36,695 nt of DNA from an uncultured Clostridium sp. (lineage in GTDB: Bacteria > Bacillota > Clostridia > TANB77 > CAG-508). A model generated the notes under the pieces. It saw only the letters and a list, made by a program, of their open reading frames with translations, had not been told where the DNA came from and did no database searches. Position 1 is the first letter of the stretch, and the number at the start of each line of letters is the position of its first letter. This document shows, piece by piece, positions 23,572 through 26,485 of the stretch. A program made the position numbers and the translations under genes. Where the stretch lies: contig CAMEWM010000011.1 of the NCBI GenBank assembly GCA_945946655.1, positions 1 through 36,695 of the forward strand, written 5' to 3'.

Positions 23572-24186
23572 ATGATAGATAAAATTTGCAAAAACCTAAC
23601 AAATAAAATCCGAAAGAAGATGCCAGAGATTAATGATGAAAGAGCAGAGATAATACAGTATGGCTTACAACTAATGATTGGAGAGATACCAAAGCTCATA
23701 TTATTAATCATAATAGCAATAATATTAAAAATTGGATGGTTGGTAATATTTGCATATTTAACTATGTTACCATATAAAATTGTGGCAGGTGGATTCCACT
23801 TAAAGACGCATATAGGATGTACAATAGGGACATTTATTGTTTACTTTGGAAATGTAATGATTAGTAAAAACTTAGTGTTACAACCAATATATTTTAAATA
23901 TGTTGTAGTTGGATTAGTATGGATTATATCAATAATAATGATTTCTTTGTATGCTCCCGCAGACACTGTGAATTTTCCAATATTAAGAAAAGAAGAGAGA
24001 AAATTAAAAAAAATTTTATCATATGTCTTTGCAAGTATAACTTTGATTGGAGCTATTTTTATAAAAGATAATACATTATCAAATATAATATTAATTAATG
24101 TATTAATAGAATCATTATCAATCTCAAAACTAGCTTATAAATTAACAAAGAATCAATATGGATATGAAATATATCAAAAAGGATAA
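23572..24186 (+). CDS. agrB: AgrB-like peptide-processing membrane endopeptidase
   Basis: AgrB cuts the C-terminal part from the AgrD precursor and joins the end to a side chain to form the thiolactone or lactone signal. The 204-residue protein has the hydrophobic multi-span pattern and the catalytic pair His76 and Cys83 in GGFHLKTHIGC. Their spacing of seven equals that of S. aureus AgrB His77/Cys84. The SD AAGGAG precedes the ATG at 23572. It is followed after 70 bp by agrD. I see no clear sigma-A promoter in the 240-bp region upstream, which holds a Spo0A-box match and a possible leader ORF. Confidence 0.95.
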   Translation: MIDKICKNLTNKIRKKMPEINDERAEIIQYGLQLMIGEIPKLILLIIIAIILKIGWLVIFAYLTMLPYKIVAGGFHLKTHIGCTIGTFIVYFGNVMISKNLVLQPIYFKYVVVGLVWIISIIMISLYAPADTVNFPILRKEERKLKKILSYVFASITLIGAIFIKDNTLSNIILINVLIESLSISKLAYKLTKNQYGYEIYQKG

Positions 24187-24200
24187 AATGAGATTAATAC

Positions 24201-24220
24201 AGCATTAAGCCGGCAATGCT
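24201..24220 (+). other. Small hairpin between agrB and agrD
   Basis: AGCATT (24201-24206) and AATGCT (24215-24220) flank the loop AAGCCGGC, followed by TTATTA. It could be an RNA-processing site or weak terminator that changes the agrB to agrD ratio. Confidence 0.3.
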
Positions 24221-24256
24221 TTATTATAAAATGAGTTGTAAGAGGAGGAGAATATT

Positions 24257-24376
24257 ATGTTAAAATTATTAGCTAAAGTTGCTGAAAAATATGCAAGAAA
24301 TACAAATACTGCTTGCATTTTCTGGGGAGTATTCCATCAACCAAAAATGCCAGCATCATTAATTAAAAAAGATTAA
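24257..24376 (+). CDS. agrD: AgrD-like cyclic autoinducer peptide precursor (39 aa)
   Basis: The product fits AgrD: an amphipathic basic N-terminal helix (MLKLLAKVAEKYARN), a signal region with one cysteine (Cys20 in TACIFWGVF), then the conserved C-terminal recognition segment HQPKMPASL and a charged end. AgrB would remove the tail and cyclise through Cys20. The Cys lies seven residues before the HQPK block, further than the five-residue ring of S. aureus peptides, so the mature ring may be larger than usual or the cut site shifted. The SD AGAGGAGGAG is very strong. agrB precedes and the histidine kinase converges from the other side. Confidence 0.9.
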   Translation: MLKLLAKVAEKYARNTNTACIFWGVFHQPKMPASLIKKD

Positions 24377-24401: not shown

Positions 24402-24433
24402 AAAACAAGATAGTACTTAAGCTATCTTGTTTT
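24402..24433. terminator. Bidirectional terminator of agrBD and agrCA
   Basis: AAAACAAGATAG (24402-24413) pairs perfectly with CTATCTTGTTTT (24422-24433) around an 8-nt loop. It lies exactly between the two converging transcripts and touches the kinase stop codon. Confidence 0.88.
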
Positions 24434-25782
24434 TATTCATTATAAATTTCAATCTGTTGTTTAAAGAATTTATTTGTTTTAGATGTAAACCTCGAAATAT
24501 TCTTACTTTGAGAAATTATTTTATTTACTTCCCATAGCCCAAGTCCAGTATTCTTTGGCTTAGTAGAAAATCCTTTTTCATAAATCTTATCTAGATTTAT
24601 ATCCTTATTTTTATAAGTGTTTTCAATTATTAGTAATTGTCTATTTTGTCTTATATCATTTCTAATTGTTACGTTAATTATTTTTTCATCACATTCAGAT
24701 GCAGCTTCGATAGCGTTATCCATAAGAATTCCTAATATTCGAGTGAATTTATAAATTTCCATATATAGATTGTTAAAATCTATAAAAGACTCTAATGTTA
24801 TCTTTATGTTTAGTTCATCTGCCCTGTAATATTTGTTAGCAAGAACAGTATATACAGCAGGATTATTAATTGCATCGGGACTTAATGAGCTTAAATTATT
24901 TACTTGATTACAATCTGTTAATAATTGTTTATAATATTTTGTTAAACCATTCATATCATTTGTTTCAACATATCCACCAATGCCTGCTATAATATTAGAA
25001 AAATCATGCTTAAATGCTCTAATATTATCATGTAAAATTTGCAAAGTCTTATTGTATAATTTTTCCTGTTCTAAATCTTCAGTAGTTTTTTCTAATTTCA
25101 TTGTTTTTACCATGCTAAAAGTACTAATGAAAAAATATGATATTAGAGATAGAATATTAATAGAAATAACAAAAGTTGGTAATGCATGATAATAAAATAC
25201 AATTAAATACATTTGAATAAAGATTACAACAATTGCAATTAGTGTATTAGTTAGGAGTATTATTTTATTTTTCTTATTTAAATTATCTAGTATAGTAATA
25301 TTGAAGTTAAAATGTTTGATTAATTTGTATATTATAAACAATATTATATAAATTGATAAAGTAATAATAAGTCTAAATAAAGGAATTTTAGCACAAACAT
25401 TATAATCAATATTAAATATGATTAAAAATAATCTTGCGCAGATTAACTCTAATATGGAGATAAAGACATTTGGAATAAATTCAGCAAATAGGCTTTTTAA
25501 AAAGCTAATTCTAAATACATACATAATTATAAATGGTGCACTAATTAAAGTTAAAATATTACTGTATGGTTTTGGAATAACAAAAATACAGAGCAATCCA
25601 ATAGGGATTGTTATAGATAAGTAAATAATTTTTTGCTTCTTGGTAGCAGAAATATTTAATAGAGTAAGAAAAAATTGCATTATAAGAGGCATCTCTATTA
25701 GTAATAAAAAAATAGATAATATTTTTATTAGAATTTCATTCTCTGTAGACAATACTGTCCATATATTATTTAACATTTCCAT
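24433..25782 (-). CDS. agrC: AgrC-like sensor histidine kinase (GHKL ATPase)
   Basis: The 449-residue protein has about six membrane segments in residues 10-225, which form the peptide sensor in AgrC. A coiled linker follows, then the phospho-acceptor His259 in FKHDFSN, and a GHKL ATPase domain with the N-box GILMDNAIEAA (351-361) and G-box GLGLW (413-417). It belongs to the HPK10-type family of peptide-sensing kinases. Its start overlaps the regulator gene by 17 bp, so the two are translationally coupled. The gene converges with agrBD, unlike the S. aureus arrangement where all four genes are in one operon. Confidence 0.93.
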   Translation of the reverse strand: MEMLNNIWTVLSTENEILIKILSIFLLLIEMPLIMQFFLTLLNISATKKQKIIYLSITIPIGLLCIFVIPKPYSNILTLISAPFIIMYVFRISFLKSLFAEFIPNVFISILELICARLFLIIFNIDYNVCAKIPLFRLIITLSIYIILFIIYKLIKHFNFNITILDNLNKKNKIILLTNTLIAIVVIFIQMYLIVFYYHALPTFVISINILSLISYFFISTFSMVKTMKLEKTTEDLEQEKLYNKTLQILHDNIRAFKHDFSNIIAGIGGYVETNDMNGLTKYYKQLLTDCNQVNNLSSLSPDAINNPAVYTVLANKYYRADELNIKITLESFIDFNNLYMEIYKFTRILGILMDNAIEAASECDEKIINVTIRNDIRQNRQLLIIENTYKNKDINLDKIYEKGFSTKPKNTGLGLWEVNKIISQSKNISRFTSKTNKFFKQQIEIYNE

Positions 25783-26485
25783 AATTATTTAAAACCTCCA
25801 TAAAATTACTTTTATATTTAGGCCCAATAAAGCACTTAGAAGTAGGTGGATATTTGAAAAAGATAGTGTTATTCGATAAATCAACATTGCTTATGTTATT
25901 AACGTTTACAATAAATGATTTATGACATCTTACAAAGTTATATGGTAATGATTCACTTAGCTTATTAAACGAACCATAAGATTCTATTGTCGATGAACTT
26001 AATGAATATATAGTTTTCATACCATCTTTTTGAATATAATTAATCAAATTTTGATTCACTAGTTTTTTCTTATTATTTAGTTTTATAAATTTTTGATTAT
26101 TAGCTGAGATATCATCAAAAAGTCTTAGTATAGTACTTTCTAGTTTTGACAAAGAAAAAGGCTTTTGAATGAAATCAAATGTTTTACATTCAAAAGCAGA
26201 TACAATATATTCAAAGTGACCTGTAAGGAAAATAATATAGATAGACTTGTTATTTTGCCTTATCTGTTTTGCAACGTCTATTCCATTTGCTTGTGAATTT
26301 AAATTAATATCTAAAAATAAAACATTAACTTCATTTTGACTAACAAAATCAATTAATCTACTTGCAGCATCAGTAGTAAACACAATAGCCGCGTCTAAAT
26401 TATTACGAAAAAATATTATTTCAAGAAATTCTTTGAGCTTGTCCAGTAATTGAGTGTTATCATCACATAATGCAAATTTAATCAT
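25766..26485 (-). CDS. agrA: AgrA-like LytTR response regulator
   Basis: The 239-residue protein has a receiver domain (about 1-120) with acidic pocket D8/D9, phospho-acceptor Asp59 in LFLDINL and Lys108 in QKPF. A LytTR DNA-binding domain (about 130-235) follows, containing YNFVRCHKSFIVNVNNI. Such regulators bind paired direct repeats. No convincing pair was found before agrB, so its own targets are open. The gene precedes the kinase on the same transcript, an order typical of clostridial agr loci. Confidence 0.94.
   Translation of the reverse strand: MIKFALCDDNTQLLDKLKEFLEIIFFRNNLDAAIVFTTDAASRLIDFVSQNEVNVLFLDINLNSQANGIDVAKQIRQNNKSIYIIFLTGHFEYIVSAFECKTFDFIQKPFSLSKLESTILRLFDDISANNQKFIKLNNKKKLVNQNLINYIQKDGMKTIYSLSSSTIESYGSFNKLSESLPYNFVRCHKSFIVNVNNISNVDLSNNTIFFKYPPTSKCFIGPKYKSNFMEVLNNYGNVK

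Follow-up and report, generated by a model that had tools for sequence, protein, structure and literature searches.

The window, which is the whole analysed stretch of 36,695 nucleotides from an uncultured Clostridium sp., contains an agr locus in which agrB, agrC, and agrA are all linked to agrD. The start of agrD is located 70 bp 3' of agrB, with agrC and agrA convergent to agrBD, and the gene order rluA-agrB-agrD-agrC-agrA-pdaA is kept across the GTDB family to which the window belongs. A search of its own genome indicated one AgrD and one AgrB. The features of the locus, with the basis for each in parentheses, are as follows.

23572–24186, forward strand: agrB, predicted membrane cysteine protease that would cut and cyclise AgrD, with His76 and Cys83 (PF04647, 132 bits).
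24195–24226, forward strand: hairpin with a CCGG core in the agrB–agrD intergenic region (fold, arm-swap covariation, and position specificity).
24257–24376, forward strand: agrD, signal peptide precursor of 39 amino acids (TIGR04223, 31.5 bits, cut-off 19).
24257–24313, forward strand: AgrD leader, MLKLLAKVAEKYARNTNTA (conservation across 107 relatives).
24314–24334, forward strand: predicted seven-residue ring CIFWGVF, Cys20 to Phe26 (hypervariable hydrophobic columns and covariation with the AgrC sensor).
24335–24352, forward strand: cleavage block HQPKMP (HQPxMP in 107 of 107 relatives).
24353–24373, forward strand: remainder of the C-terminal tail expected to be discarded, ASLIKKD (family conservation).
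24404–24431, no strand assigned: inverted repeat AACAAGATAG/CTATCTTGTT leading into T-rich DNA, probably a terminator that separates agrBD from the convergent agrAC unit (read off the sequence directly).
24433–25782, reverse strand: agrC, receptor histidine kinase with a variable N-terminal sensor half (GHKL domain, PF14501).
25766–26485, reverse strand: agrA, response regulator with a LytTR DNA-binding domain (PF00072 and PF04397).

The catalytic dyad of AgrB, His76 and Cys83, was invariant in all 152 family AgrBs, and a search of the PDB by sequence found no solved AgrB relative. AgrC gave a profile score of 111.6 bits, which is under the cut-off of a Staphylococcus-specific model, and matched 6e52, the kinase module of S. 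aureus AgrC. A crude search 5' of agrB for paired LytTR (AgrA-like) boxes indicated no enriched spacing.

The open reading frame of 39 codons at 24257–24376 is translated as MLKLLAKVAEKYARNTNTACIFWGVFHQPKMPASLIKKD and consists of the parts MLKLLAKVAEKYARNTNTA-CIFWGVF-HQPKMPASLIKKD. It has the leader, the Cys/Ser nucleophile, and the Pro-containing C-terminal block of the AgrD family, with a TIGR04223 score above the cut-off. Cys20 is encoded by the codon at 24314–24316 and HQPKMP begins at codon 27, so that the spacing is seven, in agreement with the preliminary description as to the reading frame, its coordinates, its translation, and the distance from the ring Cys to the block. This spacing is neither that of the five-residue autoinducing peptides (AIPs), in which the nucleophile lies five residues before the block, nor that of the six-residue type of C. 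acetobutylicum.

The spacing was conserved across the family. When 195 genomes of this family were searched at the protein level, an AgrD relative was found in 126, and the spacing counts rest on 107 AgrDs that were read, all found by homology. The nucleophile was at −7 in 105 of them (Cys in 97 and Ser in 8) and was Cys at −6 in the other two; hence, the spacing is not attributable to chance. HQPxMP was present in 107/107, with K at x in 104, so that HQP(K/T)MP is nearly invariant, and the leader was also strongly conserved; a further relative has Ser at −7 ahead of HQPKCP. By contrast with the rest of the alignment, in which the entropy was at most about 2.2 bits, each of the six columns between the nucleophile and the block had an entropy of 2.5–2.9 bits, and all 107 seven-residue stretches differed from one another. 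Thus, the alignment of homologues that the preliminary description had proposed placed the variability from the residue after Cys up to the residue before the invariant His-Gln-Pro. That description had spoken of a distinct signal chemistry for this lineage; the spacing is real, and the trait is family-wide rather than peculiar to this genome.

A DNA pattern scan provided additional loci, which were used for ring diversity and not as independent evidence of the spacing, because the pattern fixes Cys at −7. The diversity set of 165 genes comprised the AgrDs that were read, the loci from the pattern scan, and a few order-level loci. In total, 163 distinct rings were found among 165 distinct agrD genes, and polar or charged residues accounted for 11 of 988 ring residues. 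The matches from the pattern scan were almost all from uncultured Clostridia, with gut sources (goat, sheep, chicken) given for many, and no AgrD relative was found when phages were looked at. The agr rings known so far are closed by either Cys or Ser. Ser was found in place of the ring Cys in nine relatives (L010, L032, L033, L035, L047, L060, L068, L073, and L082), and these members of scattered family lineages are predicted to produce lactone rather than thiolactone signals. The two family members with a spacing of six, L036 and L037, have the rings CFLWLL and CIFTVL; the shortenings were apparently separate events, and the AgrB of L036 is very close to that of L055, which has a ring of seven. 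A ring-five AgrD/AgrB of a distant type on contig C39 of G126, a genome assigned to the family (L112 and L379; CFCIM with HQDKLP), groups with distant AgrBs and was set aside as possible contamination or transfer.

Outside the order, a phylum-level sample of 398 genomes contained AgrD in 156, from which 110 loci among the better-scoring matches were read. In all 110, Cys, Ser, or, in one case, Thr was located exactly five residues before [YH][QED]P (93/93 by automatic count, with the remainder read by eye). A class-level sample, in which some weaker matches were included, gave 45 readable AgrDs, with a spacing of five in 42, six in two (L407 and L420), and seven in none, one (L419) being unclear. 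L417, a member of another family, carries the same HQPKMP block as the window with Cys at −5, and therefore, the block is not the part that moved. This contradicts the case of an offset block with a canonical five-residue ring, which the preliminary description had named as an outcome that would speak against an unusual ring. Sister families of the same order had a spacing of six (f5, 12/12; f4, 3/3), and the AgrBs of the three families (the window's, f4, and f5) formed one clade with a support of 100/99, apart from all ring-five AgrBs. Inside this clade, the spacing may have stepped from six to seven, or alternatively from seven to six more than once. One f4 genome also carries an unrelated AgrD of the ring-five type.

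The hypervariable stretch was then related to the receptor. The entropy profile indicated that the N-terminal sensor half of AgrC is far more variable than its kinase half. In close pairs, in which the kinase domains were 96–98% identical and the AgrD flanks were identical or nearly so, one to five of the six ring residues differed and the AgrC sensors were only 56–71% identical, with dN/dS values of 0.5–0.7 for the ring and 0.05–0.12 for the flanks. Covariation was computed within clusters of close relatives, and the ring was correlated with AgrC sensor similarity after the effects of kinase identity, AgrB identity, and cluster were removed (partial r of 0.49–0.54, with 0.52 given kinase and AgrB identity; permutation p of 0.0005), whereas kinase similarity had no notable positive link with the ring given the sensor (r of 0.04, −0.19, and −0.08). 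The correlation may result in part from shared recent divergence, which is better tracked by fast regions than by the slow controls. Individually, positions −1, −3, −4, and −6 covaried with the sensor, the last only just, and positions −2 (p of 0.32) and −5 (p of 0.09) did not significantly do so; the leader positions just ahead of the ring also exhibited no significant covariation with the sensor. The last two ring residues jointly covaried with it given the first four (r of 0.34, p of 0.003).

This joint covariation bears on where AgrB would cut. Covariation marks residues that are important to the receptor and does not place the peptide bond that is cut; still, the last two ring residues would sit in the discarded tail if the cut were after Gly24, and their covariation counts against such a cut. 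The preliminary description had left two options, a seven-residue hydrophobic ring and an earlier cut, for example after Trp23 or Gly24. The former is favoured by the hypervariable stretch and by the receptor covariation of its last two residues, and the latter is disfavoured. More broadly, a cut after Trp23, Gly24, or Val25, which would leave a ring of four to six residues with those before His27 discarded, is unlikely. Rings of five residues greatly outnumber all others, and Gly is common at −3 (54/107), so that a cut after Gly is conceivable in the window sequence; however, half of the relatives do not have this Gly, positions −2 and −1 vary as much as the first four, with the tail from His27 onward being nearly invariant, and the same block in other families, even HQPKMP itself, has Cys at −5. 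It is also conceivable that the peptide mainly serves another role, for example as an antimicrobial or membrane-active cyclic peptide, instead of quorum sensing, considering that the rings are strongly hydrophobic and diverse and that no target genes are known. The linkage of agrC and agrA in the family and the covariation of the AgrC sensor half with the ring make this very unlikely.

The position of the cut in characterized relatives supports the seven-residue ring. In C. thermocellum, the AIP was confirmed by mass to result from a cut just before the block, with Tyr next after the ring (PMC5322536), and in C. perfringens, the ring CLWFT results from a cut directly ahead of the conserved block (PMC12312760), this 5-mer ring being termed the likely natural signal (PMC7492741). 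The same rule of a cut before [YH][QE]P gives CIFWGVF in the window. A cut one residue later, after His27, would produce the eight-residue ring CIFWGVFH and would likewise retain every variable residue, with His adjoining the variable stretch. This is extremely unlikely, as His27 is invariant in 107/107 relatives and His falls in the discarded tail of C. perfringens-type peptides as reported (PMC12312760).

Thus, CIFWGVF as a seven-residue, 22-atom hydrophobic thiolactone is very probably the agr quorum-sensing signal of this organism and is the best-supported reading of the sequence. In the mechanism that we propose, AgrB (His76/Cys83) would recognise the HQPKMP tail together with the conserved leader and cut AgrD between Phe26 and His27, and the acyl group would be passed to the thiol of Cys20, closing the 22-atom thiolactone, or a lactone where a species has Ser instead. 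The leader would be stripped off by a protease, with this cut probably falling at the invariant NTA or immediately ahead of it. The 97% complete genome of the organism gave no match to PF02517, which represents CPBP/Rce1-like proteases of the MroQ type, and the leader is therefore probably removed by an enzyme of another type. An exocyclic tail, if there is one, would hardly differ between species, since the sequences begin to vary only beyond Cys20. It has been reported that tail-less five-residue AIPs rearrange to a head-to-tail ring (PMC11297923), and by analogy, a tail-less seven-residue product could do likewise. The sensor half of AgrC, which evolves fast, would then bind the hydrophobic ring, and AgrC would signal via AgrA in an autoinducing circuit, with one fixed locus per species carrying its own ring and a matching receptor.

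The size of the agr ring is regarded as nearly fixed. The five-residue AIPs, such as AIP-I of S. aureus, CLWFT of C. perfringens, and the lactone of C. thermocellum, share with the window family the agr gene set, the His/Cys dyad of AgrB, the Cys/Ser nucleophile, the conserved block directly after the ring, and a hypervariable signal to which the AgrC sensor is matched. The family differs from them in having seven instead of five residues from the nucleophile to the predicted cut, an almost wholly hydrophobic ring, and a conserved NTA ahead of the nucleophile. The six-residue AIPs (CVLVTL of C. acetobutylicum and its relatives) have an enlarged ring and separate agrBD and agrCA operons in common with the window, but their ring has six residues and a LanM-like gene (CA_C0082 homologues) lies downstream (PMC10301443), whereas pdaA lies beyond agrA in the window. 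FsrD/GBAP of E. faecalis is also an enlarged AgrD-type macrocycle, although it is a nine-residue lactone with two exocyclic residues. The macrocycle sizes given in a primer of 2025 are five, six, and nine residues, and in S. aureus, an altered ring size abolishes activation (PMC12312760). We found no report of a seven-residue agr ring in the literature searched, which took in only a minority of subscription papers.

It is likely that this entire family of gut Clostridia has switched to seven-residue agr macrocycles that are hydrophobic almost throughout (thiolactones and some lactones) and of a size absent from the literature reviewed, through an enlargement within the order (five outside, six in the sister families, and seven here) and with essentially one private ring and a co-evolving receptor per species. 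Because the ring size changed within one order and the AgrBs are directly comparable, exchanges of homologous enzymes and substrates make it possible to test which features of AgrB determine the size of the ring and how AgrC adapts to it. Furthermore, a single conserved locus supplies over 160 natural signals that differ from one another, most of them accompanied by the receptor gene, as material for studying the code by which ring and receptor recognise each other, and this material comes from largely uncultured bacteria of the animal gut.

The agrB–agrD intergenic region carries a hairpin (24195–24226) of which the arms are variable but covarying and the palindromic CCGG core is invariant. 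Pairing was assessed by combining the arm of one species with the opposite arm of another; own arms paired over a mean of 8.65 bp compared with 4.80 (sd 0.24) for swapped arms. The single-sequence fold of the window copy was not unusually stable (z of 0.49), and the evidence for the hairpin therefore rests on covariation. The CCGG core was present in 106 of 157 family agrB–agrD intergenic regions, about a third being without it, and no Rfam family reached its threshold in the sequence around this element. The 752 kb of family loci contained 56 such hairpins, all of them immediately 5' of agrD.
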